From IMG/VR virus record IMGVR_UViG_3300033151_000166, positions 1 through 64,000 of that record: 64,000 nt of DNA. The stretch is one strand, 5' to 3'. The notes under the pieces were generated by a model. That model did no database searches, was not told the origin of the DNA, and saw nothing but the letters and a program-made list of their open reading frames with translations. Positions 13,396 to 44,179 of this stretch are shown here, one piece after another (the stretch's first letter is position 1; the number at the start of each line of letters is the position of its first letter). The position numbers and the translations under genes were made by a program. Source of the stretch: a virus.

Positions 13396-13426
13396 GATGA
13401 TTCCTTAATAAAGATTTAATCTTTCT

Positions 13427-13437
13427 TATGGTATAAT
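13427..13437 (+). promoter_or_regulatory. Extended -10 promoter of the early block
   Basis: TATGGTATAAT contains TGn-TATAAT, a perfect extended -10, with no TTGACA-like -35 at 16-18 bases upstream. It lies 227 bases before the first plus-strand micro-gene. It lacks the ACTTG prefix found at the other phage promoters, so it may be the one read by unmodified host polymerase early in infection (inference). Confidence 0.55.
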
Positions 13438-17925: not shown

Positions 17926-17938
17926 CTTGTGATATAAT
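17926..17938 (+). promoter_or_regulatory. Promoter, phage consensus (first of three)
   Basis: CTTGTGATATAAT with an extended -10 (TGA-TATAAT). No -35 hexamer is visible. It lies 189 bases before the start of the 133-residue protein and is the first of a tandem triple. Confidence 0.75.
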
Positions 17939-17996
17939 ATGTATCAAGAGCAAGGAAGCACTGAGACATATCGATTCTCAGAGTAACTTTAATCTC

Positions 17997-18010
17997 ACTT
18001 GTGATATAAT
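17997..18010 (+). promoter_or_regulatory. Promoter, phage consensus (second of three)
   Basis: ACTTGTGATATAAT, an exact match to the phage consensus, 72 bases after the first. No -35 element is visible. Confidence 0.78.
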
Positions 18011-18069
18011 ATATGTATGAGTGACTGAGAACCAGCGAGATTTGAAAGAGTCAAAGCAATCTTCAGTCC

Positions 18070-18083
18070 ACTTGCGATATAAT
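18070..18083 (+). promoter_or_regulatory. Promoter variant (third of three)
   Basis: ACTTGCGATATAAT, differing from the consensus at one base (T to C), which removes the extended -10 TG but keeps the ACTTG element. It is 44 bases before the start codon. That the ACTTG part is retained suggests it has its own role. Confidence 0.65.
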
Positions 18084-19344: not shown

Positions 19345-19358
19345 ACTTGTGATATAAT
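19345..19358 (+). promoter_or_regulatory. Promoter, phage consensus
   Basis: ACTTGTGATATAAT, exact consensus, followed by ATATATAAATAAAG and 34 bases later the ATG at 19392. It lies directly after the iteron-like array. A second TATAAT-like GTATAATTG (19331-19339) lies just upstream. Confidence 0.78.
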
Positions 19359-20947: not shown

Positions 20948-20961
20948 ACTTGTGATATAAT
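20948..20961 (+). promoter_or_regulatory. Promoter, phage consensus
   Basis: ACTTGTGATATAAT, exact consensus, 28 bases before the ATG at 20989. No -35 element is visible; the preceding gene ends four bases upstream. Confidence 0.78.
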
Positions 20962-22518: not shown

Positions 22519-23535
22519 ATGGCATTGGCAATCATAGATGGCAATAACGGCTTATACGATGGCAACTCATACCTCTATGATGCCCACTACTACTATGACA
22601 TAGGTCATATGACACAGTACTCAAAGATACCTTCATCTGAATACCTACAGTACAACACTGGTGGCACGCACGAAGGTATACCTAGATACTTTGACGGTAA
22701 CGTAGAGCTTATAACCAATGCTGATGGCAGACAACCTCAGCGACCATTCAAGGGTCTAACACAAGACGGTATACTATTCCAGATACTAGAGACACTTAAG
22801 GGTTGGCCTAAGGATAACTCTAACATCTTTGTGTACAAGAACAAATATGGTGAGGTAGAGCTGGTACAAGCGTATGCAGTTGGTGGTACACAAACAGTCG
22901 TGTCTCATATGCTATGTTTTAATGATAACAAATATAGAAACCATGATACTTATAACCTTCGCTACGCAACTAAGTTCTTGAATGCTAATATTCCTAATCG
23001 CAATGCAGTTCCACTCACTACAACAACCAAGACACCTTGGGACTCGACACTGCAAACACCTGATCGTACTGAGTGTTATATGCTACGTGGCAGCCATAAG
23101 CTATGGAAGATCAACAACAAGTACTATGATGCCGTGGGAAATCAATTAGCTGCAATGGCCCTGGCATCACCAAGAGTCAATGAACTTATATATGCTACCG
23201 ATACAGGTAAACCATTTGAAGGCGTAGTACCTCAACACCTAATATACGAAGCGGGTGCCGCCTATGATAGTTATGGCACTAACTTAGACATACCATTCAC
23301 ATACTCATTCGATGAGATAGTACTATCTAGACAAGAGAAATCACTCAAGGGACCACTCAATATACGTGGCTTATACTACTGGTGTACACTTGAGTTTGCT
23401 ACTAATCCTACTGGTGTTACTGGTCTTTATAAGATCAATAGCTATTTAGAGACTGACATAAGTCGTCTACCATCACGTGATATGATGGTTGGGATTGAGC
23501 ATAATAAAGATGTAGTGATTACCTCAACAAGTTAA
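22519..23535 (+). CDS. Unknown, possible virion protein with DGN motifs
   Basis: 338 residues, ATG preceded by AAGGA. The N-terminus reads AIIDGNNGLYDGNSYLYD and residue ~65 carries FDGNVELITNADG; the same DGNxxL motif occurs in a connector and the DUF2163-like tail protein on the minus strand. The rest is aromatic, strand-rich sequence with no enzyme motif. The shared motif hints at a virion component, even though it lies on the early strand under a separate operator. Function unproven. Confidence 0.6.
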   Translation: MALAIIDGNNGLYDGNSYLYDAHYYYDIGHMTQYSKIPSSEYLQYNTGGTHEGIPRYFDGNVELITNADGRQPQRPFKGLTQDGILFQILETLKGWPKDNSNIFVYKNKYGEVELVQAYAVGGTQTVVSHMLCFNDNKYRNHDTYNLRYATKFLNANIPNRNAVPLTTTTKTPWDSTLQTPDRTECYMLRGSHKLWKINNKYYDAVGNQLAAMALASPRVNELIYATDTGKPFEGVVPQHLIYEAGAAYDSYGTNLDIPFTYSFDEIVLSRQEKSLKGPLNIRGLYYWCTLEFATNPTGVTGLYKINSYLETDISRLPSRDMMVGIEHNKDVVITSTS

Positions 23536-23558
23536 TTACTTACAACTTGTGATATAAT
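23527..23558 (+). promoter_or_regulatory. Promoter with overlapping inverted repeat
   Basis: AACTTGTGATATAAT (23544-23558) is the consensus promoter. Its AACTTGT (23544-23550) is the exact reverse complement of ACAAGTT at 23527-23533. The pair could fold as RNA at the end of the upstream transcript or bind a protein next to the -10. The ATG at 23578 lies 19 bases downstream. Confidence 0.75.
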
Positions 23559-23577: not shown

Positions 23578-24198
23578 ATGGCTGATACAGGACTTTTATT
23601 ACGCGGGGATCTATTCAACAATATCTTTATAGACCCAGTCGTTACACGTGAAATAGCTATTGCTGGGGCTTGGCTTAGTGCTGGTACTGACAATGGTACT
23701 GGTGGAACTGACGTACACTATCTGAATCTAGCAGCGCTTGCTAAGATAGGAAAATTGAATGATGATCAAGGCTCTAGCGATGCTGGCCTTAAGACTTCCG
23801 ATCTTCCGATCACTTTCGACGGTGGACTATTTAACCAGCAACCAGAAGGCATCATCGTTGATGAGAACTTCATGTTGTACTTCGCAGCTCTAGGCTTTAA
23901 AGAAGTAACAGAGGACAAGCTGACATTCTTGGATGACAGCTTCCTTGACCTACCGTATCTAAAGTTCCTCAACTATCTACCAGATGTAGCTGCAACAGCA
24001 GTTGATATCACTGTTACTTGGAACCAGGGTGTTAAAGCTCAGATTACCAATGAGACGAGTGGCACTGCCCTAGGCTATGCTACGACCTCTGGTTCCCCTT
24101 ACGTATATCCAGTTGCACCAGCAGCTAATGATATTATTAGTGTTGCAATGATTGATGGTACTTTCAATGCAGCTAAGAAACAAACTATAACTATTTAA
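23578..24198 (+). CDS. Possible virion protein of 206 residues
   Basis: ATG after AAGGAG. The protein has an ordered first half (LLLRGDLFNNIFIDPVVTRE) and a Thr/Ala-rich beta C-terminus (AATAVDITVTWNQGVKAQIT, NAAKKQTITI), the profile of a tube, decoration or Ig-like virion protein. It is driven by its own consensus promoter and followed after eight bases by an Ala/Glu/Pro-tailed protein. Not recognised; virion role is a guess from composition. Confidence 0.55.
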   Translation: MADTGLLLRGDLFNNIFIDPVVTREIAIAGAWLSAGTDNGTGGTDVHYLNLAALAKIGKLNDDQGSSDAGLKTSDLPITFDGGLFNQQPEGIIVDENFMLYFAALGFKEVTEDKLTFLDDSFLDLPYLKFLNYLPDVAATAVDITVTWNQGVKAQITNETSGTALGYATTSGSPYVYPVAPAANDIISVAMIDGTFNAAKKQTITI

Positions 24199-24206
24199 GG
24201 ACCCTT

Positions 24207-24512
24207 ATGAATAAAGCTTACAAAGATCTCGTGGACGGACTAGCTCAAGTCGGTGATGCACTCGTTGCAATTGGTGAAGATCCTACACCAGCACCTATTA
24301 AGTTACTTGTATCTGAACTGGTTAATAAACTTAACCTCAACAATGGCGATGCTGTTGACACTCTAACAATGTTGCGCTATGCCGTTGATAATGATGATGA
24401 AACACTGACTAAACTCACTGCTTACATCACTACTAAACCAGGTGAAGCTCCAGTTGCTGAAGCAGTTGTTGAACCTGAACCAGAAGCTGAGCCTACACCT
24501 ACTAAGGCTTAA
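24207..24512 (+). CDS. Small helical protein with acidic Pro-Glu tail
   Basis: 101 residues. A helical N-terminal domain (KAYKDLVDGLAQVGDALVAI, LLVSELVNKLNLNNGDAVDT) ends in AEAVVEPEPEAEPTPTK, a tail like those of the proteins at 18127 and 27728. Co-transcribed with the 206-residue gene. Function unknown. Confidence 0.65.
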   Translation: MNKAYKDLVDGLAQVGDALVAIGEDPTPAPIKLLVSELVNKLNLNNGDAVDTLTMLRYAVDNDDETLTKLTAYITTKPGEAPVAEAVVEPEPEAEPTPTKA

Positions 24513-24514
24513 GC

Positions 24515-24748
24515 ATGCACCCTATGGACTTATGCCCGGCGGACTATCCGGCATCAGAAGACTGTAAAAAGATCTTCTGTGAATACCGTAACAAGAAGGG
24601 CAAATGCTCCTTAGACATACAGCTTGAGAACCGCCCTTATGAGGTGGCTGAGATAGCTGATATCCTACAAATCTCTCGTCAACGCATCTGGCGTCTATAT
24701 GACTCAGGTGTTGCAAAGATGAAAAATCTAGTTAACCGGTACTATTGA
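24515..24748 (+). CDS. Sigma region 4.2-like DNA-binding protein with Cys cluster
   Basis: 77 residues. The N-terminal half has Cys7, Cys17, Cys22 and Cys31, likely a metal-binding knuckle. Residues 42-70 (YEVAEIADILQISRQRIWRL then YDSGVAKMK) align without gaps to sigma70 region 4.2: Arg55 matches R584 and Arg57 R586, while E585 and R588, the -35 readers, are replaced by Gln56 and Trp59. It is two bases after the previous gene and ends at a clear terminator. Small Cys/sigma4-like proteins are known in phages; here a separate sigma factor lacks exactly this part. Role as polymerase partner is inference. Confidence 0.7.
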   Translation: MHPMDLCPADYPASEDCKKIFCEYRNKKGKCSLDIQLENRPYEVAEIADILQISRQRIWRLYDSGVAKMKNLVNRYY

Positions 24749-24753
24749 TAATT

Positions 24754-24772
24754 AAAGCTCTCGAGCTTTTTT
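24754..24772 (+). terminator. Intrinsic terminator
   Basis: AAAGCT-CTCG-AGCTTT (24754-24769) followed by TTT, a 6-bp stem with U-run directly after the sigma4-like gene and seven bases before the next promoter. Good rho-independent form. Confidence 0.75.
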
Positions 24773-24778
24773 ATCATT

Positions 24779-24792
24779 ACTTGTGATATAAT
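24779..24792 (+). promoter_or_regulatory. Promoter, phage consensus
   Basis: ACTTGTGATATAAT, exact consensus, 28 bases before the KTSC gene start and immediately after a terminator. No -35 is visible. Confidence 0.78.
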
Positions 24793-24819
24793 TATACATA
24801 TCAAAAGTAAGGATAAACA

Positions 24820-25035
24820 ATGGAAATTCCAATGCAGTCAGTCGAGAGCTCAAACATCGACTCAATCGGTTATGATCAAGACAGTGAGACTCTTTATGTA
24901 GAGTTCAAATCAGGTATTACATACAAGTACGAGAATGTCCCATTCTATAAGTACACTGAACTAATGGATGCTAACAGTGTTGGTCGCTATCTCAATGCTG
25001 AGATTAAGGGCGCACATGAGTATTCCAGACTATAA
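24820..25035 (+). CDS. KTSC domain protein
   Basis: 71 residues, whole length matching a KTSC domain: SSNIDSIGYDQDSETLYVEF, GITYKYENVP, then MDANSVGRYLNAEIKGAHEY. KTSC proteins are small domains found widely in phages and fused to lysyl-tRNA synthetases; their function is unknown, though nucleic-acid binding is often suggested. The ATG follows AAGGAT. Confidence 0.75.
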   Translation: MEIPMQSVESSNIDSIGYDQDSETLYVEFKSGITYKYENVPFYKYTELMDANSVGRYLNAEIKGAHEYSRL

Positions 25036-25345
25036 ACTTGAGTTCAGCTGCTGGGACCTAAAAGATAAGCACTTGAAAGAGTACAACATCTGGTACTACG
25101 GCACTGACTTAGGTATCATCTGTATGAAGGTGGTAGATGGCGACTTAGAGATACATAACATCTTTATTGATGAAGCTTACAGAGGCAATGCTCACGGAGC
25201 AAGCTTAGTGAGTCAGTTAAGAGTTTATGTTGATCGGGTAACAGCAGTGGACGTAGTTCCAGATGCTGAAGGTTTCTGGGAAAAGATAGGCGTAGATATC
25301 ATTAGACACCCTCACTTTCTTGGCGATCAAACTATTGAAGGATAA
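25016..25345 (+). CDS. GNAT-like acetyltransferase, short
   Basis: 109 residues from ATG 25016, which follows AAGGG and overlaps the KTSC stop. Residues ~45-65 read DLEIHNIFIDEAYRGNAHGA, matching the acetyl-CoA-binding motif A of GNAT enzymes (R/Q-x-x-G-x-G/A), followed by a beta-alpha unit. It is shorter than the usual 140-170 residues and lacks a clear motif B, so activity is uncertain. Phage GNATs can modify host proteins. Confidence 0.55.
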   Translation: MSIPDYKLEFSCWDLKDKHLKEYNIWYYGTDLGIICMKVVDGDLEIHNIFIDEAYRGNAHGASLVSQLRVYVDRVTAVDVVPDAEGFWEKIGVDIIRHPHFLGDQTIEG

Positions 25346-25348
25346 GAT

Positions 25349-25579
25349 ATGAAGGCAGTTACACTAACTAGTCTAGGTTTAGAAGATTATAAGCCTGAGA
25401 CGATTGAAGACGAGATATCTAAGCGAGCTACTAACTTTGCTCGTTATGCTATGGCAGATGTAGAGTATGCACTGCAAGTCCTAGGTATGAAGATGGACGC
25501 CGAGCAGTACGAGCAAGCCTTTAGAGCTATGATGGTTCGTAAAGCTAAGAACGAGGTTCGTAAGTATAATGCAGGATAA
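25349..25579 (+). CDS. Small helical protein, unknown
   Basis: 76 residues, ATG after AAGGATAAG. Mostly helix (EDEISKRATNFARYAMADVE, AEQYEQAFRAMMVRKAKNEV). In the same operon as the KTSC and GNAT-like genes. Not recognised. Confidence 0.65.
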   Translation: MKAVTLTSLGLEDYKPETIEDEISKRATNFARYAMADVEYALQVLGMKMDAEQYEQAFRAMMVRKAKNEVRKYNAG

Positions 25580-25754
25580 AATAGTTATATCTAACTTGAT
25601 ACACTTTATGGAGTTTATCAAGAGAGAGGTATATACAGCTGAGATACCAGAGAATAAGAAGGCTCTGGTAGCTAAACGAATGCAAGACCTAGCTAAACAA
25701 GGCTATGACTTGGCAAAGAATGGTGCTATAACCATTACTATAAAGGAAGACTAG
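25569..25754 (+). CDS. Small helical protein, unknown
   Basis: 61 residues, overlapping the previous gene by 11 bases. Basic, helical (LIHFMEFIKREVYTAEIPEN, ALVAKRMQDLAKQGYDLA). Not recognised; coupled translation supports it. Confidence 0.6.
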   Translation: MQDKIVISNLIHFMEFIKREVYTAEIPENKKALVAKRMQDLAKQGYDLAKNGAITITIKED

Positions 25755-26012
25755 ATGTATGCAAATGATATGAAAGACGGTATGGCCATTAAGATGACCC
25801 ATGGTAGAGAAGGTCACTGTCGTGACAACAAGAGAGGTATCATTAGAGTAGTTGAGGTACCAGTATTCGGTGGTCAACAAGGCACTGACGTTGGCTCATG
25901 CTATGTAGACGAGATTTTGAAGATTCAAGACTTCGAGGGTGAGTGGCATGCTATGGAGTTAACCAAAGCACATAAGAAGACACTTATTGATATTAGAAAC
26001 GAGGGCTGGTAA
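25755..26012 (+). CDS. Small beta-rich protein, unknown
   Basis: 85 residues, starting directly after the preceding stop with AAGGAAG upstream. Reads as a small beta barrel (GMAIKMTHGREGHCRDNKRG, RVVEVPVFGGQQGTDVGSCY) with a C-terminal helix. Shares one base with the next start (TAATG). Not recognised. Confidence 0.65.
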   Translation: MYANDMKDGMAIKMTHGREGHCRDNKRGIIRVVEVPVFGGQQGTDVGSCYVDEILKIQDFEGEWHAMELTKAHKKTLIDIRNEGW

Positions 26013-26311
26013 TGTTTGACTGGAAAGAGCTTGAAAAGTTGGTAGACGATGGTCGATCACCACTGGCTGAAGACTTGATCAGAACAGATGAGAAAGCAGT
26101 TCATGCTTTTATCTTAGCTCGTTACTTGATGAGTAATAACAAAATCGGGTTCATCATGCTACTAAGCTTGATTGATCGTCGCGAGGTGTCTGTAGTCATT
26201 GCAGCACATCAACTGTGGATGATCTTTAACCTCAAACAGTTGAAAGACATGGCAACTATAGCATATGAAGAGGCTCCAGAGCTATTTGTTAGACCAGAGA
26301 CTCAAGAGTAA
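26012..26311 (+). CDS. Small helical protein, unknown
   Basis: 99 residues, coupled to the gene before by TAATG. All-helical, with EKLVDDGRSPLAEDLIRTDE and a repeat-like IMLLSLIDRREVSVVIAAHQ. Last gene of its operon. Not recognised. Confidence 0.65.
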   Translation: MFDWKELEKLVDDGRSPLAEDLIRTDEKAVHAFILARYLMSNNKIGFIMLLSLIDRREVSVVIAAHQLWMIFNLKQLKDMATIAYEEAPELFVRPETQE

Positions 26312-26317
26312 GCACTC

Positions 26318-26340
26318 CACGAGAATACTCGTGGTATAAT
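26318..26340 (+). promoter_or_regulatory. Promoter variant with inverted repeat
   Basis: CTCGTGGTATAAT (26328-26340) is a variant of the phage consensus with an intact extended -10. CACGAG (26318-26323) and CTCGTG (26328-26333) are perfect inverted arms around AATA, so an operator overlaps the upstream part of the promoter. It faces the DNA ligase gene. Confidence 0.7.
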
Positions 26341-26349
26341 ATAATTTAT

Positions 26350-26380
26350 AGAGGATATTTGCTGATGTAAATGTCCTCTT
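26350..26380 (+). promoter_or_regulatory. Hairpin at the start of the ligase leader
   Basis: AGAGGATATTT (26350-26360) pairs with AAATGTCCTCT (26369-26379) around an eight-base loop, with one G-U-type pair. It would lie at the very 5' end of the transcript from the promoter just upstream, ~90 bases before the ligase start. It could stabilise the RNA or attenuate it. Confidence 0.65.
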
Positions 26381-26382
26381 AG

Positions 26383-26393
26383 ATTATATCACA
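26383..26393 (-). promoter_or_regulatory. Opposite-strand copy of promoter core
   Basis: On the minus strand this reads TGTGATATAAT, the full extended -10 of the phage consensus without the ACT prefix. It is the only minus-strand copy I found. It faces the plus-strand promoter 43 bases away and, if active, would give antisense RNA to the gene at 26012. Confidence 0.45.
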
Positions 26394-26466
26394 GACTAAG
26401 AACTGTGCGGTATGGCTCACGGATTGAGCTTAAAAGTTAACATTTAATCGAAATGGAGGTTGATAA

Positions 26467-27429
26467 ATGGCGTATGAATCAAAAGAGTATGGAAGTTTTC
26501 TTTCAGCTAAGAAGAAGTCTAATATAAATGGCGTGGCACTGTTAAAGTCCAATAGTAATTTATACATTGAAGAGAAATTTGATGGTCACCGTCTTGTCAT
26601 CAGCAAAGTAAATGGTATTTACAGAGCGATGACTAGAGGTGGTAAAGATAAGATGGATATTATTCCTCATATCGAAGCAGCTCTAGAACTAATGGAGTTA
26701 CCAGATGATACGATCATTGATACTGAAGCTATTGTCTTGGACGCAGAAGATCGTTGGGCAGCTACACAGTCTGAACTTGGATCCCATGGCGCTTGTACTA
26801 CTGCTGTCTCTATTATTATATTTGATATTCAGCGTTGGGCGGGTGTAGATCATTCCACAAGCTTCTACCTAGATCGTAGAGCAGTCGTTAAAGAGTGGGT
26901 CGCTGATCACTCTATCAATTCGCGGAAGCCAATTGATAAGACTGAGTCTACGAACTTTGTAGAGACTAACGTTCATTATTCCAGAGCATGGCCCGTATCA
27001 GCATACGAAAGCCACTGGAATAGAATTGTTACAACTGGTGGACGTGAAGGTTTAATGCTTAAAGACAATGCATCTAATCGTTATAACTATGGTTGGACCA
27101 AAGTCAAAAAGCTTATTGAAGTAGACTGTTTTGTTATTGGTACTACCAAGGGTAAAGGTAAGTATGAAGGTATGATCGGGGCTCTTGAAGTCGCAGTATA
27201 CAATCATGGTACTATCTATCCTATAGGTAAGATAACTTCTTTAGGCGACTTACAAAATCGTGCTGAAGCAACTCAATTAGCTATTGATAACAACCTTAAA
27301 TTCAAGGTTCTAACAGTTGAATGTAATGAGGTCACAAAAGATCTTAAGCTACGTCACGGTGTATTCGTTAAGTGGTACCCAGACAAGCTTAAAGATGAGT
27401 GCTTACTAGACCAGCTCAAGGAAGACTAA
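26467..27429 (+). CDS. ATP-dependent DNA ligase
   Basis: 320 residues, ATG after ATGGAGG. Motif I EEKFDGHR places the adenylated Lys at 37. Motif III DTEAIVLD (~84), motif IV EGLMLKDN and motif V WTKVKKL follow in order. The C-terminal ~100 residues match an OB-fold (VDCFVIGTTKGKGKYEGMIG, LRHGVFVKWYPDKLKDE). It lacks the N-terminal DNA-binding domain of larger ligases, like T7 ligase. It seals nicks in lagging-strand and repair synthesis. Confidence 0.9.
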   Translation: MAYESKEYGSFLSAKKKSNINGVALLKSNSNLYIEEKFDGHRLVISKVNGIYRAMTRGGKDKMDIIPHIEAALELMELPDDTIIDTEAIVLDAEDRWAATQSELGSHGACTTAVSIIIFDIQRWAGVDHSTSFYLDRRAVVKEWVADHSINSRKPIDKTESTNFVETNVHYSRAWPVSAYESHWNRIVTTGGREGLMLKDNASNRYNYGWTKVKKLIEVDCFVIGTTKGKGKYEGMIGALEVAVYNHGTIYPIGKITSLGDLQNRAEATQLAIDNNLKFKVLTVECNEVTKDLKLRHGVFVKWYPDKLKDECLLDQLKED

Positions 27430-27618
27430 ATGACACATAATGGATGGTTCGTTAACCCTCATAATGCTAATTTAGCAGTGAACTTAGAGCAGGCATCTAC
27501 TCTAGACTTGAAAGACAATAAGGTCATCATTAGCGGTATCAGAATTTGGACTTTCGAGTCTGACACTGTAGCCGCTAGAGTTTTCGAACAGATGATTAGG
27601 ACTGCTCAGCAAAAATGA
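27430..27618 (+). CDS. Small protein after ligase, unknown
   Basis: 62 residues, starting directly at the ligase stop with AAGGAAG upstream. Small beta-then-helix protein (LDLKDNKVIISGIRIWTFES, VAARVFEQMIRTAQQK). Probably translated with the ligase. Not recognised. Confidence 0.65.
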   Translation: MTHNGWFVNPHNANLAVNLEQASTLDLKDNKVIISGIRIWTFESDTVAARVFEQMIRTAQQK

Positions 27619-27628
27619 GCTAACAATT

Positions 27629-27660
27629 ACAAGTAGCATAACAACTACTTGTGATATAAT
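27629..27660 (+). promoter_or_regulatory. Promoter with overlapping inverted repeat
   Basis: ACTTGTGATATAAT at 27647-27660 is the exact consensus. CTACTTGT (27645-27652) is the exact reverse complement of ACAAGTAG (27629-27636) across an eight-base loop. This is the longest of three promoters with such an overlap (others at 23527 and 26318). Confidence 0.78.
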
Positions 27661-27727
27661 ATAAATTCAAAAGAGTATTGGTGCGGACAACGGACTGAAA
27701 TCTTTTATCAAAAAACAGGAGTCAATT

Positions 27728-28228
27728 ATGACAAAGACACAATTAATCGCAAGAGCAGCAGGTCTGGGTTTACCAGTAGAAGACAAAGATACAAAAGAGG
27801 TACTTTTAGAGAAAGTATCAAACTTTTTCATCGAAAACGATGACAAAGAGGCGCTAGTATCTTTCCTTGAAGAGAACGGTTTCACTCTTGATGAAGAGGG
27901 TAACGTTGTTAAGAAGTCAAAGCGTGGTAGTCTTGGTGAGAACCCAAATACTAAAGCTTTCCATACGATCAAAGTACTTCAAGATGAGACTCTTGCTGAA
28001 CTATCTTATGCAGAGCTTGCTAACTACCTTAAAGAGACTGAGGGTGTTGAAACTACAGCTAACTCTATCGCTTGGTATGCTAACTGGCTTAAGACTAAAG
28101 GCAAAGAGTGTGTTGCTCGTGCTAAAAAGTCTAAGAAAGCTGACAAAGCAGCAGCTGAAGCAGCAGAAGCAGCAGAAGCAGAAGACGCTCCTGAAGTCGA
28201 AGAGACTGAAGAAGCAGCAGAGGTTTAA
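27728..28228 (+). CDS. Acidic-tailed protein, paralogue of the 18127 protein
   Basis: 166 residues, ATG after CAGGAG. Residues 1-35 (TKTQLIARAAGLGLPVEDKD) resemble a SAP/HeH-type helical DNA-binding unit. Residues ~80-130 align with the 133-residue protein at 18127 (LQDETLAELSYAELANYL; TTANSIAWYANWLKTKG). The C-terminus is an Ala-Glu tail after a basic KKSKKADK patch. The early promoter and the DNA-binding-like parts suggest a nucleoid- or replication-associated role (inference). Confidence 0.7.
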   Translation: MTKTQLIARAAGLGLPVEDKDTKEVLLEKVSNFFIENDDKEALVSFLEENGFTLDEEGNVVKKSKRGSLGENPNTKAFHTIKVLQDETLAELSYAELANYLKETEGVETTANSIAWYANWLKTKGKECVARAKKSKKADKAAAEAAEAAEAEDAPEVEETEEAAEV

Positions 28229-28736
28229 TCCTCTCTTCACGGCTTCGGCCGTGCATATGGTCAATGACCACCAAATTCGCTGGTGCTTCCCAGACTAAAC
28301 GAAGCTATGTTAATTTATGATAAAGTTATTGAGGGTCTAGCCATCCTCAGTACGTTTGTTCAATGCAGTCCTAGTGGTTTATCCACATTTTCTCCTAGGG
28401 CTTCTAGAGTAAACTATAACATCACTGTGTGATTTTTGATTTGAGTTCTCAGAACATAGGCCCTCATCCTCCTATGTTCTCTAGAGCTCGTCATCTTAGG
28501 TCTCGTACACCTTAAGACAGTTCTACCTGCTATGGGGTAACAACATAGACGAGTGTTCTGATCCCGATTAATACGATTAAGAAAGGCAAACAGGTCGTGC
28601 CTTCACACTCTCGGGTCACTAAAAGTCTCATACCATCTCTAGGTGACCCGGTATTATCCAATCAACCTTCTTTCAATACTTCCCTGACATAACGCCTTTA
28701 GTTAGGGAAGATCTCATATCAAGCAAATCTATTCAT
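28229..28736 (+). ncRNA. Hairpin-rich gene-free region, candidate structured RNA
   Basis: 508 bases with no plausible gene on either strand, between a strongly promoted gene and the next promoter. Visible stems include CACGGC-TTCG-GCCGTG (28238-28253), ATCAC-TGT-GTGAT followed by TTTTT (about 28421-28438), AGAACATAGG/CCTATGTTCT (10 bp, about 28450-28480), CGGGTCAC/GTGACCCG (28612-28619 and 28643-28650), and CTTCCCTGAC/GTTAGGGAAG (28679-28688 and 28701-28710, one wobble), plus shorter AAGGCA/TGCCTT, CCTAG/CTAGG and TCTAGAG/CTCTAGA pairs. This density suggests a large structured RNA, or a processed 3' region. A consensus DnaA-box-like TTATCCACA lies at 28379-28387. Confidence 0.45.
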
Positions 28737-28750
28737 ACTTGTGTTATAAT
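28737..28750 (+). promoter_or_regulatory. Promoter variant
   Basis: ACTTGTGTTATAAT, one base from the consensus (A to T) with the extended -10 TG kept. It is 29 bases before the dUTPase-like gene. Confidence 0.72.
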
Positions 28751-28779
28751 AATTTAAACTAAAACTCAAAGGCTAGATA

Positions 28780-29355
28780 ATGAATATTACTGATACAGTG
28801 GAACGTCAATGGAATTGGCAAAAGACAATGAACTCGGATTTTGATACTATGTACTTGGCAGCGATCGAAGAAGTTGGTGAGCTCGTAGCAAGCTTTGGAT
28901 ATGCAGACTGGAAAAAGTCAGAGAGAGATACTCAGAACATTCTAGTTGAGTCAGCCGACTTATTTATCTTTGTTATCAACTGTGCATACTATGCTAAAGA
29001 ACCTATTAAAGGTCAACTCAATCCTCATATGACACCTATCGGTGACGATCGCAAATTTGCTCAGACACTCATTAGAGCACTGTCAGAGAACGATATGGAC
29101 TATCTAATCAACATTCTATTTACTGAGTACCCAATGGCATATGACTATGTAATGGCTAAGCAAGCACTTAATGCTCTACGTCAAGATCATGGCTATAAGA
29201 CTGGTGACTACATTAAAAACTGGGGTACAGATACTAAACCATACGAAGACAATAGAGCTTTATCAGCACTACTTGGTCGTGGTTTAAACTACAATGGTAT
29301 GTACTTGGAACTAAACACGCAGTATACTGCAATGATGACTACTAGACTAGGATAA
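28780..29355 (+). CDS. dUTPase/dCTPase-like all-alpha pyrophosphatase
   Basis: 191 residues. It carries the metal-binding signature of dimeric all-alpha NTP pyrophosphatases: Glu31-V-G-Glu34 (AAIEEVGELVASFGYADWKK) and Glu57-S-A-Asp60 (VESADLFIFV). The family includes Campylobacter dUTPase and T4 gp56 (dCTPase-dUTPase). The enzyme hydrolyses dUTP and possibly dCTP, giving dUMP/dCMP for the TS-family enzyme encoded at 38611. Which nucleotide it prefers cannot be read from the sequence. Confidence 0.75.
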   Translation: MNITDTVERQWNWQKTMNSDFDTMYLAAIEEVGELVASFGYADWKKSERDTQNILVESADLFIFVINCAYYAKEPIKGQLNPHMTPIGDDRKFAQTLIRALSENDMDYLINILFTEYPMAYDYVMAKQALNALRQDHGYKTGDYIKNWGTDTKPYEDNRALSALLGRGLNYNGMYLELNTQYTAMMTTRLG

Positions 29356-29358
29356 ATC

Positions 29359-29535
29359 ATGGCAACAAGTGCAAAGAAGGTTTTGAAGATAGATGCTCAC
29401 GGTCAAGTAGCCGGAACGTATCTATCAGCAACTGAAGCAGCTAAAGATGTAGGCGTTACACCTCAAGCTATCTCTAATGCCTGTAGATATGGTATTAAGG
29501 TCAAAGGCACAAGGTGGATATATGCACGTACTTAA
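29359..29535 (+). CDS. NUMOD1-like small DNA-binding protein
   Basis: 58 residues from ATG 29359 (no strong ribosome site; three bases after the preceding stop). The sequence VLKIDAHGQVAGTYLSATEA, AAKDVGVTPQAISNACRYG and KGTRWIYAR matches the NUMOD1 repeat, usually the DNA-binding part of homing endonucleases. No nuclease domain is attached. Overlaps the primase start by 14 bases. Could be a leftover of a homing gene or an independent regulator. Confidence 0.6.
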   Translation: MATSAKKVLKIDAHGQVAGTYLSATEAAKDVGVTPQAISNACRYGIKVKGTRWIYART

Positions 29536-32287
29536 ATACTACCATGTAGACCACAAAGATAAGTGGCATATTGTACCTGAAAGCCAGATACCAGTCAATG
29601 CTAAATATGAGTCAGTCATGTACCTTAAGTATAGAGCTGAAGATGTTGAAGCAAGTGGCGAGCAACAAGAGTATTGGGGTCCAATGTACATTGACCTTGA
29701 TAGCGAAGACGTATTAATAGCCTTAGCTGATATGAGAGAGATCTTAACTTACTTAGACCTCAACTTTAATATCCAAGAACCTAACTATAGAATATATGCT
29801 AGTGGTAGTAAAGGCTTTCACCTAGAGATTAATCCATATCTATATATGGATGGTAAATTCAAAGTAGCTCTACCTCTACGTTACAGAGCTATGGCTGCTA
29901 GAATTAAACAAGATCTTGGTGATAGAGTCTGTATTGACATGGGTGTATACTCACAAGGTAAGGGTAGACAGTGGCGTAGACCAAACGTCAAGCGTGAGAA
30001 TGGCAACTATAAAGTCTGGTTACCAAGAGCGGAGTTTAACAAGTTAGACTTGGATAAACTAAATGATGTAGTTAAACAGCCAGGCTTGGTAGCACCAATA
30101 TTTGAAAAAGTAATGGTGAATGAATTGCTTAAGTCCTGGTTTGAATCTACTAAGAAACTAGTTGAAATGGCTAAGCCATCAAAACCTGTACCAGATAACG
30201 TAATCCTAGATACTGAGACTCCTGAGTGTGTCGTTAAGTTAGCTAGGAATAAAGATGTTAAAGGTAATGTTAATTCAAACCTTCTAGCTATGCAAGCTAT
30301 CAGTTATGGTATAGCTAGAGCTTGGAACGTAGATCAGATTATATCATATAACCGTGAGTTTATCAACAACTACCGCTCATCACAGTATAAAACTGCAGCG
30401 GCTTTTGAAGATCACTTTAGAGGTTTATACGACTATGCATCTGAAGCACCAGACAAATTTAAGTTTGGTTGTAAGATGATGCTATCTTGTGTAGACTCAG
30501 TCGACTGTAACTCTTGTGCCATTAAGATCGGCGAAGACGCAGAGAACATGGTTGAAGGTATTATTGTTAAAGATGGTCACTACTATCTTATACCTGATGA
30601 CCCTGATCAACAACCAAGAAAACTATCTAATTTTACCATCGACTTAAGATCAATGACTTATATGGAAAGTGAGCTATACTCTGAAGAGCCACCAGTATTA
30701 GATATAAAATTTAGTAGTCCAAAGAACGCCACCAGAGGACTATGGTCAGAGAGCAAGAAGGTCAAGCAAGATCTTTTCGCAAGCAAACAGGCGTTCACTA
30801 AAATACTGAGCTTAGAGCTAGCTTACTTTGGCTCAGATAAGGACTTACAGATGTTGAAACTAGCTATTATGCATGCCAGTGACCCCAAGAAGATACTACA
30901 GGTTGAATACACTGGGTTATACTGGAAAAATGATGAGTGGCACTTTGTCACTAAAGACGGTTCTATGTCTCTTAACGGGACTATTGATCTTATCAAGACT
31001 ACAGCAGGTGCAGCGGCAGCTACTAAGACTAAGCTTAACTTTGAGTCTGAGCGCCCACCTAGACCTGACGAGATTATAAAGTACTTTGATACTCTAGCTG
31101 AGATCAACTCTAGTATCGTAACAGTTCCACTTATCACTTGGTTCTTTGGAGCATTCTTTAGTCCGCACTGTATGACTATGAATGAGCCAGCACCAAGTCT
31201 ATTTGTTACGGGTTCACATGGAGCTGGTAAAACTCAGTCTATTCTACAGATGCATAGACTGTTTGCACCAGACAGACCATCGTTTCCTTCTATTAGTAGT
31301 ACAACAGCTTTCTCTATGAATAAGTTCTGTAGCTCGACTAACCTGATGCCACTCATATTTGATGAGTTTAAACCTTCAGCTAACACGTCTAAACGTGGTG
31401 AAGAGGGTCAAGTATCTCAAGCTATTCGTGCTTCATACAATAAAGGCTACGAGTCTCGTGGTACTAAGAATAGAACAGTTGAAGAGACTCCTTTCTTGGC
31501 ACCTATCGGCTTTATTGGTGAACAACAAATTAATGAGGGTGCAGTTCAAGATCGTATTGTTCTAGTACACATGGATAAAGCAACTCACTCTAGAAAAAGA
31601 TCTGATGCTCTGGAAGATTTGAAACGTCTTGATATTGAAGTCATTGGTGCTCACTTCCTAGAGTTTGCTATGCGTGTACGTCCAGAAGAATTTGTTAATA
31701 AGGTTCTAAGCTATGATAAGCAGTTAGAAGACAAGTATAACGGAGTCTTTGATAATAGACCACGTAGAAACTTAGCTAATCTTATGACTGTAATGGACTT
31801 GATTGAGCAGTATGTATTACTATATACAAGTGATGAGTCTTTGGTAGAGAAGTTGGCCGGTATTATGAACGAGTATGTTAGCAGCTTCAATAGTCACTCT
31901 ACTAAAGTATACAATGAAATGCGTGGTATGGACGATACAGTTCAAAGCCTTAATTCATTGAATGACCTTGCCGATCTCATTAACCCTAATCTAGGTGATT
32001 TGGCACTGATGAGAAATAGACAGTATACTATTGAGGATGGCATCCTATACATTGATGTAGCAGCTTGTTATACTAACCTCAGCATCTATATCCAGAAGAA
32101 TAGATTGAACTTGTATCTAACAGACAAATCTAGCTTCTTGATGCAGCTTAACCAGAAGAACTATGTAACTAAGAAGATGTTCAAGTCAGATAAGATTATT
32201 AGTGGCAGACAGCGTATGCTAGTTGGTATCAACTTAGAATTAGCTGAAGCTAGCAGTGTTGTTCTAGACAACTTTAGTAGGAAATAA
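29522..32287 (+). CDS. Primase-helicase (AEP-type primase, P-loop helicase)
   Basis: 921 residues from ATG 29522, preceded by AAGGTGG; an upstream in-frame start lies inside the NUMOD1-like gene and is less likely. The N-terminal half has archaeo-eukaryotic-type primase motifs: PMYIDLDSED (metal Asp pair near 55-60) and YASGSKGFHLEI (near 97-110), with a His. A cysteine-containing linker (CVDSVDCNSCAIKI) may bind metal. The C-terminal half has Walker A GSHGAGKTQS at ~563 and a Walker B-like LIFDEFKP. It should unwind and prime phage DNA at the fork. Confidence 0.85.
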   Translation: MHVLKYYHVDHKDKWHIVPESQIPVNAKYESVMYLKYRAEDVEASGEQQEYWGPMYIDLDSEDVLIALADMREILTYLDLNFNIQEPNYRIYASGSKGFHLEINPYLYMDGKFKVALPLRYRAMAARIKQDLGDRVCIDMGVYSQGKGRQWRRPNVKRENGNYKVWLPRAEFNKLDLDKLNDVVKQPGLVAPIFEKVMVNELLKSWFESTKKLVEMAKPSKPVPDNVILDTETPECVVKLARNKDVKGNVNSNLLAMQAISYGIARAWNVDQIISYNREFINNYRSSQYKTAAAFEDHFRGLYDYASEAPDKFKFGCKMMLSCVDSVDCNSCAIKIGEDAENMVEGIIVKDGHYYLIPDDPDQQPRKLSNFTIDLRSMTYMESELYSEEPPVLDIKFSSPKNATRGLWSESKKVKQDLFASKQAFTKILSLELAYFGSDKDLQMLKLAIMHASDPKKILQVEYTGLYWKNDEWHFVTKDGSMSLNGTIDLIKTTAGAAAATKTKLNFESERPPRPDEIIKYFDTLAEINSSIVTVPLITWFFGAFFSPHCMTMNEPAPSLFVTGSHGAGKTQSILQMHRLFAPDRPSFPSISSTTAFSMNKFCSSTNLMPLIFDEFKPSANTSKRGEEGQVSQAIRASYNKGYESRGTKNRTVEETPFLAPIGFIGEQQINEGAVQDRIVLVHMDKATHSRKRSDALEDLKRLDIEVIGAHFLEFAMRVRPEEFVNKVLSYDKQLEDKYNGVFDNRPRRNLANLMTVMDLIEQYVLLYTSDESLVEKLAGIMNEYVSSFNSHSTKVYNEMRGMDDTVQSLNSLNDLADLINPNLGDLALMRNRQYTIEDGILYIDVAACYTNLSIYIQKNRLNLYLTDKSSFLMQLNQKNYVTKKMFKSDKIISGRQRMLVGINLELAEASSVVLDNFSRK

Positions 32288-32288
32288 T

Positions 32289-33722
32289 ATGACTTCCTTG
32301 GCAATGACTCCCTTCGATTATCAACTGGAAGATATGAAATTCTTAATATCATCTGGTAAAGCCGCATTGACACACGAACCTGGGGTTGGCAAAACCTTTG
32401 GTGCGATGTTAGCACTTACATATATAATCGAAAAGTCCGGCGGACAGGCCCTAGTTGTTATGCCACCTATTTTACTAAATACTTGGTATGAGAAATTCCA
32501 TGAGTACTTTGATACTGATCTTAAGATATTTGTCTACAAAGGTTCGCCGAAAGAGCGTAAAGCGATCAAATTAGAGAACCATGACGTCGTCTTAGTAAGC
32601 TATGATTTATTGCAGCGAGACTATGAGTCGTTCAGAAAAATTCTATGGAAGTCAGTTACCATAGATGAAAGTAAGTATATCAAGGTTGGCACTGTCACTA
32701 AGTCTAAGAAGACTGGAAACATGAATAAGTTTGGTTGTGTACAGTCTTTAGCCTATAGAGCTGAGTATGTGACCATAATGAATGGGACACCCTTGACGAA
32801 ATCACCTATGGATTTATTCCATATCTTTCAATTGATTAACCCTTCTATGTACATAACTAAGAAGAACTTCTTAAGAACCCATGCTAGATATGCTAAGGAT
32901 GATGGCGGTTTCCCTATGATCATTGGTTGGCAGAAGTTAGAAGCACTGCAAGTACGCCTTGATAGAGTCAGTAGACGTATGATAAAGTCACAGGTACTGA
33001 AAGATCTACCACCTAAGCAGTTAATCATTAAACAATTTGACCTTGAACCTAAACATAGTAAGACCTTAAAAGAACTGATAGACTTTGGTTTTGTAGAGCT
33101 CAAAGACTCTAGTAAAGAATTCCTATTCTTAGAGGGTACTTCTTTATTGATGCAAGCTAGACAAGCTATGTTTGATCCTAGTATATTAGGTTTACCTGGT
33201 GAGTCAGCATATGTAGAGGTATTACAAGATATCTTAGAGGACCTAGGTGATGAGCAAGTGATTATTTTTGCTCACTTTCATGGCACTATAGATATTATAC
33301 GTAAGTTACTAGAGAAGATGAAGCTATCACACACTGAACTGCACGGTAGAGTCACAGCAGCTAAGCGAGATGGAGCAGTGACTGCATTTAAACAAAAGAA
33401 AGTCCAAGTACTACTAGCTAATGCTCTATCAGCTGGTGTAGGTCTAGACTTTCAACAAGCAAGGAATGTTATCTTTGCCGAGCTAGATCATCAAGTAGAT
33501 AGTTTCTGGCAAGGTATGGATAGAGTACATAGACCAGGTCAAACTGATGATGTAAATGTCTTTGCACTGGTAGCTAAGAATACACCAGCCGTAGCTCTAA
33601 TGAGAGGTATTAAAACTAATATAGACTATGTATCAGCTGTACTTACTGGTAAAGAAGACGCTTCAGTCCTATATAACAATAGAATTACTGAGAAAGAGGA
33701 GAGAGAATGGATGGCTTTGTAG
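32289..33722 (+). CDS. SNF2-family DNA helicase/translocase
   Basis: 477 residues. Helicase motifs in order: I HEPGVGKTFG, II TIDESKYIK (DES instead of the usual DEAH-like), III NGTPLTKSPMDLF, IV VIIFAHFHGT, V ANALSAGVGLDFQQA, VI FWQGMDRVHRPGQ. This arrangement is SNF2-like. Phage SNF2 proteins such as T4 UvsW-type enzymes act in recombination-linked replication and branch migration. Overlaps the sigma factor gene by 16 bases, so the two are co-expressed. Confidence 0.88.
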   Translation: MTSLAMTPFDYQLEDMKFLISSGKAALTHEPGVGKTFGAMLALTYIIEKSGGQALVVMPPILLNTWYEKFHEYFDTDLKIFVYKGSPKERKAIKLENHDVVLVSYDLLQRDYESFRKILWKSVTIDESKYIKVGTVTKSKKTGNMNKFGCVQSLAYRAEYVTIMNGTPLTKSPMDLFHIFQLINPSMYITKKNFLRTHARYAKDDGGFPMIIGWQKLEALQVRLDRVSRRMIKSQVLKDLPPKQLIIKQFDLEPKHSKTLKELIDFGFVELKDSSKEFLFLEGTSLLMQARQAMFDPSILGLPGESAYVEVLQDILEDLGDEQVIIFAHFHGTIDIIRKLLEKMKLSHTELHGRVTAAKRDGAVTAFKQKKVQVLLANALSAGVGLDFQQARNVIFAELDHQVDSFWQGMDRVHRPGQTDDVNVFALVAKNTPAVALMRGIKTNIDYVSAVLTGKEDASVLYNNRITEKEEREWMAL

Positions 33723-34276
33723 AGGACCTAATAGAAGAGCATATGTATCTAGTAAATATCATAGCTCATAGATACAAGAACGCTAGTAATGGTTTAGGCT
33801 TTAATGATTTAGTACAAGAAGGTTCTATAGGTCTTATAACCGCAGTGGATTATTATGACCCCACCTACGGTACTAAGTTCTCTAGCTATGCTGGTATCTG
33901 GATTAAGCAGTCGATGACTGATGCCTTGACCTCTAAGTCTAGAGTACTGCGTCTACCAAGTCACATAGTATATAACAAGTTTAGAATCCAGAAGTTTAAA
34001 GATCAATTTCTAGCTACTAATAACTTTGAACCTGATGTAGACATGATATCAAAATCATTGGTTATAGACCGACACCTTGTTATACAGATACTAGACCTAC
34101 AGACTGATAAGTGTGGTTTAACTGAACTAGACTTTGAAGATCAAAACTCTGAAGACATGCTAGAAGTGGTTGAGCAAGATGACAATTTCGACTTTGTCAT
34201 TAAAGGGATGAAGCGTCTCAGTACTAAAGAGCAAATTGTCCTAGCACTAAAATTTAACCTAATGAGCAAGATTTAA
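33707..34276 (+). CDS. Sigma70-family factor lacking region 4.2
   Basis: 189 residues. Regions 2.1-2.4 are clear: FNDLVQEGSIGLITAVDYYD and GTKFSSYAGIWIKQSMTDAL. Offset 369 aligns it with E. coli sigma70 without gaps: Gln68=Q437 and Thr71=T440 (-12 readers), Tyr61=Y430 and Trp65=W434 (melting), His86=H455 (extended -10); E458 is Tyr89. Region 3 follows. The protein ends 18 residues into region 4.1 (LSTKEQIVLALKFNL), so the -35-reading helix-turn-helix is missing. Promoter DNA follows at once, so it is not a frameshifted pseudogene. Likely reads the phage's -35-less promoters. Confidence 0.85.
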   Translation: MDGFVEDLIEEHMYLVNIIAHRYKNASNGLGFNDLVQEGSIGLITAVDYYDPTYGTKFSSYAGIWIKQSMTDALTSKSRVLRLPSHIVYNKFRIQKFKDQFLATNNFEPDVDMISKSLVIDRHLVIQILDLQTDKCGLTELDFEDQNSEDMLEVVEQDDNFDFVIKGMKRLSTKEQIVLALKFNLMSKI

Positions 34277-34290
34277 GAAACGGTTAAAAT

Positions 34291-34304
34291 ACTTGTGCTA
34301 TAAT
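34291..34304 (+). promoter_or_regulatory. Promoter variant after sigma gene
   Basis: ACTTGTGCTATAAT, one base from consensus (A to C), with TG of the extended -10 kept. 61 bases before the next gene. The transcript start would carry CAAAAG/CTTTTG arms (about 34313-34335). Confidence 0.7.
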
Positions 34305-34365: not shown

Positions 34366-35001
34366 ATGGCAAAAGTAAAACAAAACATTGAAGATATGGA
34401 CGTAACAGCTGAAGTAGAAGCACCTGTAACAGATGTAGTAGTAACAGGTACGGCGGCAACGCCAGTAGCATCAGGTTCACAGATGCAACAAATGAATACA
34501 GAATTTGAAGGTCTTGATACTATCGCTAGTTTCATGCCTTACTTTATTCTTGATGGCTCAGAGCTACTTAACAAGACTGATAACTCAGCGCATCCAGCGC
34601 TTGAGGTGATTCTTGAAGGTGGTAAACCAGTATGGCAACTATGGGACGAAAGTTCTAACTTGATTGCTGAGAGTTTTGATGGAGCAGTTGATACAGCTGG
34701 TCGTCCTATGGCTGGCTTACTTGCAGCTGAGAAAGAAAAAGCTCAGAAACCTCAAGATATGAAGATCCAAGCACGTTATGAGATTTACTTCTTGTGGGAC
34801 TATGCTGAAGAAGGTGAGAAACTTACAAAGATTTCACTGTCACCAGCATCTAAGTTCCAGCTTGCTGATTATATCAAAGAGCTTTCTAAAGATGGTCTTA
34901 AACTATCTGATGCAAAGACAAAGATCACTGCTGAGCGTGTAGTTTCTAAGCAAGGCTTCCGTTACAGCCGCGCTTCATTCGAGAACATCGGAGACGCATA
35001 A
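34366..35001 (+). CDS. Possible ssDNA-binding or replication protein
   Basis: 211 residues from ATG 34366, chosen for GGAG seven bases upstream; the frame extends 48 bases further but without a start signal. The N-terminus is low-complexity and acidic; the body holds a strand-rich domain (EVILEGGKPVWQLWDESSNL, KIQARYEIYFLWDYAEEGEK) and a C-terminal TAERVVSKQGFRYSRASFEN. Own promoter, placed between helicase and polymerase genes, which would fit an abundant SSB. There is no recognisable OB signature or acidic C-terminus; this is context-based. Confidence 0.5.
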   Translation: MAKVKQNIEDMDVTAEVEAPVTDVVVTGTAATPVASGSQMQQMNTEFEGLDTIASFMPYFILDGSELLNKTDNSAHPALEVILEGGKPVWQLWDESSNLIAESFDGAVDTAGRPMAGLLAAEKEKAQKPQDMKIQARYEIYFLWDYAEEGEKLTKISLSPASKFQLADYIKELSKDGLKLSDAKTKITAERVVSKQGFRYSRASFENIGDA

Positions 35002-38576: not shown

Positions 38577-38590
38577 ACTTGTGATATAAT
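38577..38590 (+). promoter_or_regulatory. Promoter, phage consensus
   Basis: ACTTGTGATATAAT, exact consensus, three bases after the polymerase stop and 20 bases before the TS-family gene. This starts the nucleotide-metabolism and recombination operon. Confidence 0.78.
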
Positions 38591-42330: not shown

Positions 42331-44179
42331 ACTAAGATTAATAAACTACCGTCAGTACAGTGATAAGACTATAAACTTTAAAGATAAGTTAACAGTCATT
42401 CGCGGGCGCAACGGTATAGGTAAGACAACAATAGTTGAGGCAATTGGTTTTGCTTTATTTGGTTCAGCATTACAACGTGGTAAGGCTAAGGAGTGGATTA
42501 AAAGAGGGGAAGCTCATGGTGGAGTGGTACTTACAATTGACGGCTTTACAATCGAGCGTTCTGATACCCTTGCTATTGTATATGACGGGAGCGGCAACAC
42601 TGTGGCTCGCAATAACACTGGCATTGTACAGTGGGTAGAGAACACTTATGGTTTAACACCTGATCTATATAAGACGTCATTCTATATAGGACAAAAAGAT
42701 ATTGGTAGCTTCGCTGCTCTCAGTCCACTAGAACGTACTAAGAGAGTTGAGAAACTTCTACGTATAGATCGTCTAGACGAGATCAAGACTAGTGTACGTG
42801 AGGCAGCTAAGGCAGAGACAGCCAATGTTACTGCGTACCAGGCTAAGCTAGAGAACATTACTTTAGTGCCCGTAGAAGACTTAGCTGATGAGTTAGCGAC
42901 TGCTCGTACAGTTCTTGAGGTACGTATAGTCGAGAACTCTGAGTACAAGACTAAGCTTGCTGAGTACAACACATATCTACAAGCTAAGCATCAGTGGGTT
43001 GGTGTAACTTATGATCTAGATGTAGCTGAGAAGCAATATCTAGAAGACTTGTCTCACAATGCGGCAGTGGCACCCACTAATAAACTTATTAATGAAAAGC
43101 TACGTCTATTGAAAATACTAAGAGATGTAAATGTATTGCCAAAGTATTTCACGTTGTCTGAACGCGAGATTGTGAACCACGAAAACACTATATTAAAGTT
43201 CGAAAAGCTAAGAACACAAATTAAAGTATTAAATTGTGAGCCAGTAGAACACCGTAGTCTAGACTATCAAGAGCGTGACATACGAGAAGAAGAAAAGATC
43301 TTGAGTCTTAACAAAAACATACCTGACACATGCCCTACTTGTGGACAGGACTGGCCAAGCAAAGCTACCATAGATGTAGACAAATTCAAGGCTCAACTAG
43401 AAGAGAAGAAAGAACGCTTTAGATCAGATGTGTGTGAGAACCAAGCACACGGTTTGAATGAACAACTCAAAGCTATTGAACTACCAGACTATAGCATGCA
43501 AGACCTAGCTGAAGCATCAGTAGCTCTAGCTAACAAAGCTAGTTACCTTAGACTAGAAGAGTTATCTGATGTAGCTGAAGTACTTCTTGATGAGGTTATA
43601 GTTTATAATCTTGAAGAGTGTCAACGTCAAGAAGCTATTCGTGCTAAGCTAACTAAAGTTATAGTAGAACCAGTTGAAGTTGATGTAGCTGGAGCACGTA
43701 AAGAAGTGGCTCGTTTTGAAGGTAACCAAAGAGATCTTGAAGCGTACAAGAGAGATGCAGTCATTGAAGAAGAGTATACTGGTCTACTGAATACATCTAT
43801 AGATAAGGTCGAGGAACTTAAAAGACTCATCAAGTTTATAGACCTGTACAGAAAATCATTTGGTGCTAACGTAATACCACTGCTACAGACAAACGTATCA
43901 AACATAGTTAACTTCCTTAGTGAAGGTAAGTACAGTTCTGTTAAGATCAATAATGATTATTCTATAGAAGACTTTGATTTTTACAGTGGTAGCGAGCAAG
44001 ACTCTGTATCATTTGCATTACGTCTAGCGATCTCACAAGTATCACGTATAGGTAGTTTTAAAACTATGCTCTTAGACGAGGTAGCGGCTAGCTTTGATGA
44101 TGAACGCGAGCAGAAGCTGATGGAAATCTTAGAGCTACAAGATACTCAACTAATCTACATAACTCATGGTGCTATATAG
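42317..44179 (+). CDS. SbcC/Rad50-like ATPase subunit
   Basis: 620 residues. Walker A GRNGIGKTT near residue 31, coiled coils in both directions from a CPTCG zinc hook at ~339, and a C-terminal SVSFALRLAISQVS signature with Walker B MLLDEVAASFD. T4 gp46-like in size (~560). Last plus-strand gene: its 3' end overlaps by 8 bases the convergent end of the minus-strand late block. Confidence 0.88.
   Translation: MSISKLRLINYRQYSDKTINFKDKLTVIRGRNGIGKTTIVEAIGFALFGSALQRGKAKEWIKRGEAHGGVVLTIDGFTIERSDTLAIVYDGSGNTVARNNTGIVQWVENTYGLTPDLYKTSFYIGQKDIGSFAALSPLERTKRVEKLLRIDRLDEIKTSVREAAKAETANVTAYQAKLENITLVPVEDLADELATARTVLEVRIVENSEYKTKLAEYNTYLQAKHQWVGVTYDLDVAEKQYLEDLSHNAAVAPTNKLINEKLRLLKILRDVNVLPKYFTLSEREIVNHENTILKFEKLRTQIKVLNCEPVEHRSLDYQERDIREEEKILSLNKNIPDTCPTCGQDWPSKATIDVDKFKAQLEEKKERFRSDVCENQAHGLNEQLKAIELPDYSMQDLAEASVALANKASYLRLEELSDVAEVLLDEVIVYNLEECQRQEAIRAKLTKVIVEPVEVDVAGARKEVARFEGNQRDLEAYKRDAVIEEEYTGLLNTSIDKVEELKRLIKFIDLYRKSFGANVIPLLQTNVSNIVNFLSEGKYSSVKINNDYSIEDFDFYSGSEQDSVSFALRLAISQVSRIGSFKTMLLDEVAASFDDEREQKLMEILELQDTQLIYITHGAI

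Follow-up and report, generated by a model that had tools for sequence, protein, structure and literature searches.

Domain 4 of sigma factors has so far been treated as a single folding unit. When we searched open-licence papers for split or two-part sigma factors, only SigO/RsoA, T4 gp55/gp33 and SPO1 gp34/gp33 were found. SigO and RsoA of Bacillus subtilis are two cooperating polypeptides that make up one sigma factor, cut between whole domains so that sigma4 resides in SigO and sigma2 in RsoA (PMC8103513). T4 gp55 and gp33, which have been termed a split sigma, share the sigma2 and sigma4 jobs on the host polymerase (PMC2988020); gp33 has no similarity to sigma4, T4 late promoters lack a -35 element (PMC2988020, PMC7408454, PMC7892883), and the activator of late transcription is the sliding clamp. 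For SPO1, both gp34 and gp33 are needed, and the late promoters consist of two boxes, CGTTAGA-N17-19-GATATT (PMC3601020).

Here we consider a pair of phage proteins to which these systems are analogues rather than identical counterparts. The window, by which we mean the whole stretch of DNA analysed, comprises 64 kb of the 75,676-base phage record IMGVR_UViG_3300033151_000166. It encodes a sigma factor of 189 residues and a protein of 77 residues, their genes lying 9 kb apart rather than next to each other. We compared five related phages, namely the window phage and four relatives: G001 (IMGVR_UViG_3300033146_005170), G002 (contig 76, JALWRR010000076.1), G003 (IMGVR_UViG_3300033146_000857) and G004 (IMGVR_UViG_3300036715_000875). 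All five genomes are metagenomic contigs from uncultured phages, and both proteins are present in each member of the set. The genes that matter for the argument are the following.

23578..24512, + strand: two conserved genes, of 206 and 101 residues, upstream of the gene for the 77-residue protein and in the same order in G001 and G002
24515..24748, + strand: candidate small subunit, with four invariant cysteines and a region-4.2 helix-turn-helix (SRQRIWR), from its PF04545 match and its homologues
28780..33722, + strand: genes for a MazG-like pyrophosphohydrolase, a primase and an SNF2-type helicase upstream of the sigma gene (profile matches), probably co-transcribed with it
33707..34276, + strand: candidate sigma subunit with regions 2 to 3 plus region 4.1, ending in FNLMSKI and a stop, from Pfam, PHROG and NCBIfam matches and homologues

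Scans of viral contigs with N-terminal and short patterns yielded only G001, and the conserved gene that follows sigma, used as a query, yielded two more relatives. This gene (34366-35001 in the window) always sits behind a promoter of the class described below, and its product is 72% identical in G001; neither Pfam nor PHROG gave a noteworthy match for it, and it has no counterpart in named phages. The 71.7-kb G002 contig (L032, L039-L041) is a bacterial-type phage filed in the MAG of an Asgard archaeon, where it is most likely misbinned, because the 2.3-Mb bin has no match to Sigma70_r2 other than its sigma. No homologues of the 77-residue protein were found among named phages and plasmids. 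Lachnospiraceae matches to it (L033-L037) were discarded, the only one examined, L037, being an unrelated excisionase-like helix-turn-helix protein beside an integrase. Sigma matches in fecal 'Bacteriophage sp.' records (e.g. H4, H9 and H12; MT837412, MT835471, MT836790) were likewise rejected as full-length RpoD of the housekeeping type, probably bacterial contamination.

The truncated sigma factor

The 189-residue reading frame at 33707-34276 encodes a sigma70-family factor. It matches Pfam Sigma70_r2 at 1.7e-14, PHROG_351 at 6.8e-33 and positions 3-175 of the 238 in NCBIfam RpoD_Cterm, and it covers the full-length RpoD, FliA and RpoS models as far as the end of region 4.1. Sigmas of the relatives, which are 63% (G001), 43% (G002), 36% (G003) and 42% (G004) identical to that of the window, match Sigma70_r2 with E-values of 5e-16 to 5e-22 and so possess the region 2 that marks the family; regions 2 to 4 on a single polypeptide, which also characterise it, are found in none of the five. 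The first-pass annotation had proposed that the residues reading the -10 are in register with those of E. coli sigma70, and a gap-free alignment bears this out, placing Q68, T71 and H86 at the positions of Q437, T440 and H455. Q68 and H86 are invariant across the five phage sigmas, T71 is not.

That the protein stops in region 4.1, as had also been noted, holds throughout the set. We built a model of 309 positions from seven full-length sigma factors only and searched it with all ten phage proteins: every one of the five sigmas ends at model position 265. Their C-termini read ...ALKFNLMAKI in G001, ...GMKFGFLKSL in G002, ...GLQYGLLSKIK in G003 and ...GLKFGILHRL in G004, each followed by a stop codon. 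Downstream of the FNLMSKI terminus in the window there are further stops and then a promoter, which leaves no room for region 4.2 after the sigma gene. A frameshift, read-through or a sequencing error at the end of sigma is ruled out by the second stop, by the promoter and by the identical endpoint in all five phages. An intron was rejected, the window having given no Rfam match, and a split intein is unlikely, there being no space for intein domains at the junction in either protein.

Genes are known to become split through homing endonucleases. In G002, and in G002 only, an HNH-type endonuclease-like reading frame (L041 8645-9148, - strand) separates the sigma gene from the conserved gene that comes next.

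The small protein and the position of the cut

Residues 40-70 of the 77-residue protein match columns 19-49 of the 50 in PF04545 Sigma70_r4 (E 5e-4), at a score of 19.9 bits that falls below the Pfam cut-off of 24.1 bits, and generic helix-turn-helix families score close to Sigma70_r4 for this copy. The G003 homologue scores 27.8-28.2 bits, above the cut-off, and the other four small proteins 18.4-22.0 bits; the five matches span only columns 18-50, and in every phage no Pfam family matches the small protein better than Sigma70_r4. A model of region 4.2 only, run against the 420 to 597 reading frames of each phage, ranked the small protein at the top in all five; in the window phage, where 491 frames were compared, its lead over the next was small. 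It is the sole PF04545 match in a six-frame search of the whole 75.7-kb record, and a second region 4 match, sought on each of the five phage contigs, was found on none. Among PDB entries, the G003 homologue matches domain 4 of Thermus SigA (1ku3) best, at E 0.06; AlphaFold models of the two window proteins, made from two-row alignments, were poor (pLDDT 58 and 51).

Small proteins are 76-80 residues long across the phages and share 73% (G001), 54% (G002), 44% (G003) and 52% (G004) identity with the window copy. The Cys4 cluster recognised at first reading recurs in all of them, with C7, C17, C22 and C31 invariant, as are I47, A48, Q52, S54, R55, R57, W59 and R60 of the helix-turn-helix. The cysteine module sits N-terminal to the helix-turn-helix, where the helices of region 4.1 would be; the four cysteines probably bind zinc, and the module may hold the small subunit to sigma or to the flap. 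Besides the cysteines, the best conserved parts of the protein include an altered recognition helix common to the five phages, SR[QH]R[IV]WR. R584 of sigma70 contacts -31, and E585 and R588 affect -33 (PMC2613000). At positions 584, 585, 588 and 589 all five small proteins have R, Q/H, W and R, so that the initial alignment to region 4.2 with changed -35-reading positions extends to the whole set.

On the model of 309 positions the small proteins fill the stretch from 263/273 to 301/305, without meaningful overlap with the sigmas, and the NCBIfam FliA model (241 positions) is tiled in the same way, by the window sigma over 17-201 and by the G002 small protein over 203-238. Because sigma ends at 265 and the small protein resumes at 263-273, the pair appears to divide domain 4 itself, between 4.1 and 4.2, rather than to be separated between domains. 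The first-pass annotation had proposed a division into sigma2/3 in one gene and a sigma4-like protein in the other; the two parts are complementary in every phage, but region 4.1 stays with sigma. In sigma70 numbering the cut falls around residues 566-571, within the loop that connects the domain 4 helices, and the D566-L573 loop of sigma70 has been reported to be flexible (PMC4236625). In the alignments, the positions at which the two halves of sigma70 domain 4 pack against each other across this loop appear to stay hydrophobic in both proteins, V558, M561 and I565 on one side and V576, I587 and I590 on the other.

A cut at this position is unlike any of the two-part sigma factors compared. 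As precedents, SigO/RsoA and T4 gp55/gp33 had both been put forward. The former is apt as a sigma factor of two polypeptides, but its whole-domain cut differs from one inside domain 4: the phage large subunit retains regions 2, 3 and 4.1, so that sigma2 and sigma4 are not parcelled out to separate proteins. The T4 pair is a split sigma too, yet it fits poorly because the phage promoters have a -35 box of their own, rather than a -10 only, and because gp33 is unrelated to sigma4, whereas the small protein contains a recognisable region 4.2. SPO1 gp34 runs from sigma2 through sigma4 in a single chain (TIGR02937 positions 4-163 of 165), unlike the truncated phage sigma, and SPO1 gp33 belongs to Phage_Gene33 (PF25742) and has no sigma4 match, whereas the 77-residue protein has no match to PF25742. 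With domain 4 of housekeeping sigma70/SigA (e.g. Thermus SigA, 1ku3/1ku7) the phage helix-turn-helix aligns without gaps; it differs in being on a separate protein, in its four invariant cysteines and in its changed -35-reading residues.

A promoter class with two boxes

In the window phage, all ten copies of CTTGTGnTATAAT are on the + strand; neither the opposite strand nor the control has any. The wider motif CTYRYKnTATAAT was observed 13, 6, 6, 4 and 10 times in the five phages, where 0.5, 0.5, 0.4, 0.45 and 0.5 occurrences are expected; a narrower promoter consensus can be written CTTRYGnTATAAT. Sites in the window, identified by this motif and, except for the first two, by alignment of the -35 box, are these.

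13425..13437, + strand: leftmost promoter-like site, CTTATGGTATAAT
17926..17938, + strand: promoter-like site, first of a tandem three
17998..18010, + strand: promoter-like site, second of the tandem three, -35 box CAGAGTA
18071..18083, + strand: promoter-like site CTTGCGATATAAT, third of the tandem three, -35 box CAAAGCA
19346..19358, + strand: promoter-like site
20949..20961, + strand: promoter-like site
23546..23558, + strand: promoter CTTGTGATATAAT of the operon with the gene for the 77-residue protein, -35 box ACAAGTT at 23527-23533
24780..24792, + strand: promoter-like site between that gene and a gene for 71 residues
26328..26340, + strand: promoter-like site CTCGTGGTATAAT before the DNA ligase gene
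27648..27660, + strand: promoter-like site, -35 box ACAAGTA
28738..28750, + strand: promoter of the operon of MazG-like, primase-helicase, SNF2 helicase and sigma genes, -35 box TCAAGCA at 28719-28725
34292..34304, + strand: promoter directly after the sigma gene, -35 box TTAAGAA at 34273-34279
38578..38590, + strand: promoter-like site before the thymidylate synthase gene

The sites at 23546 and 28738 precede the operons of the small protein and of sigma, respectively, in agreement with the earlier view that one promoter family drives both genes, and in all five phages a promoter of the class lies directly 3' of sigma. Members of the tandem trio at 17926-18083 are spaced by 72-73 bp in a stretch poor in reading frames. 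Genes on the opposite strand (terminase, portal, major head protein and tail; 44172-63876 and 1339-13395, - strand) have no promoter of the class, and no strong host-type promoters are obvious in the window. On that strand, a reading frame of 2188 residues at 49063-55629 matches nothing in PHROG, and in Pfam just a Laminin_G-like family, weakly.

The first-pass annotation had described these promoters as having no -35, a description that does not stand. A box with the consensus RAGT(A), not TTGACA, occupies roughly positions -36 to -33, some 20 bp 5' of the -10, its G falling at -34 in the window phage, G003 and G004 and at -35 in G001 and G002. For the first three phages studied, the six best upstream columns hold 2.4 bits, where the expectation is 0.76 and the 95% level 1.04, and a matrix trained on the promoters of the window phage recovers the box in G001 and G002 (p 0.0002). 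In a leave-one-phage-out test over 42 promoters, the box of each phage was recovered from the other four, with p 0.0003 for four phages and 0.0033 for the fifth, where null and data alike were allowed a common shift per left-out phage of up to 2 bases (three in the window-trained test). Held-out sites with weaker -10s were mostly within coding sequence and uninformative, with the exception of the site at 38603 in G001, whose -35 box ranked first. Matches resembling TTGACA occur at these promoters at chance level only, and relative to TTGACA the phage box retains only the G.

On the -10 side, the TGTGnTATAAT of the window phage is a near-perfect extended -10, which could serve host sigma70 even in the absence of a -35. 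Most sites in G001 and G003 lack the TG of the extended -10 (CTTATTA, CTTACGT, CTCATTA) and retain CTYR and RAGT.

A two-subunit sigma factor as the likely explanation

The idea of a two-part sigma factor, raised at first reading, is considerably strengthened by the co-occurrence of the proteins in all five phages, their common truncation point, their complementary coverage of the models and their shared promoter class. We think it likely that the phage makes a sigma factor of two subunits: a single domain 4 would be put together from both of them on the flap, and the small subunit would read a -35 specific to the phage. The large protein would bind the beta' coiled coil through region 2, with which it would also read and melt the -10, and would read the extended -10 through region 3, while carrying the first helices of domain 4. 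From the 77-residue protein would come the remainder of that domain, the 4.2 helix-turn-helix, preceded by the cysteine (probably zinc) module, and together the two would form one domain 4 on the flap tip of the polymerase. The simplest reading is that this completed domain reads RAGT(A), by way of the changed recognition helix of the small subunit, and that recognition of CTTRYGnTATAAT falls to the large subunit. The pair would thereby switch on the replication and metabolism module, including the operons of both its own subunits; because both genes lie behind promoters of the class, it would activate itself once started.

Several other scenarios might explain the same observations. The small protein could be a separate DNA-binding activator, with a role like that of T4 MotA, which binds RAGT and recruits polymerase carrying either the phage or the host sigma, domain 4 never being completed. 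Such an activator would sit comfortably with the scores of helix-turn-helix families other than sigma region 4, with the additional cysteine module, and with the shift of the box by one bp between phages, which suits a flexible tether. We nonetheless regard it as unlikely, given that Sigma70_r4 outscores other families in all five phages, that the small protein supplies exactly the piece that sigma is missing, and that the box is located about where sigma4 would read.

A second scenario follows T4, where there is precedent for a second part that binds the flap (PMC2988020, PMC7892883): like gp33, the small protein would cap the beta flap and block domain 4 of the host sigma without reading any sequence, the -35 being read otherwise or reflecting an effect of alpha-CTD or flap. 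This seems to us quite improbable, since gp33 lacks the similarity to sigma4, in sequence and in structure, that the 77-residue protein has, since T4 late promoters consist of a -10 only and these have a conserved -35, and since SR[QH]R[IV]WR belongs, with the cysteines, to the best conserved stretches of the protein.

The two proteins might instead act separately, the truncated sigma alone driving extended -10 promoters and the 77-residue protein regulating something else. Sigma factors can initiate at extended -10 promoters without region 4, and the 9 kb between the genes fits with independent functions. Yet co-occurrence in five of five phages and an identical truncation would then be hard to account for, as would the conserved -35 box, which sigma alone could not read, and we give this scenario little credence. 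That host sigma70 simply uses the sites as ordinary extended -10 promoters, as TGTGnTATAAT in the window phage might suggest, is highly improbable in view of the sites in G001 and G003 that mostly lack TG but keep CTYR and RAGT, the chance level of TTGACA matches and the fact that the phages encode a sigma of their own.

Returning to the two-subunit sigma factor, a fuller version of it seems to us to stand a little better than an even chance: a sigma naturally split in its -35-reading domain, with a small subunit held by a cysteine/zinc module and a private RAGT box that is read only by the completed domain. As only a completed domain 4 could read that box, availability of the small subunit could act as a gate on the regulon. 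If this is true, domain 4 can be supplied as two pieces, and the phages would possess an orthogonal promoter system that takes two keys. It would also directly open the question of which residues set -35 specificity, E585Q/H, R588W and Q589R being the changes that accompany the passage from TTGACA to RAGTA.
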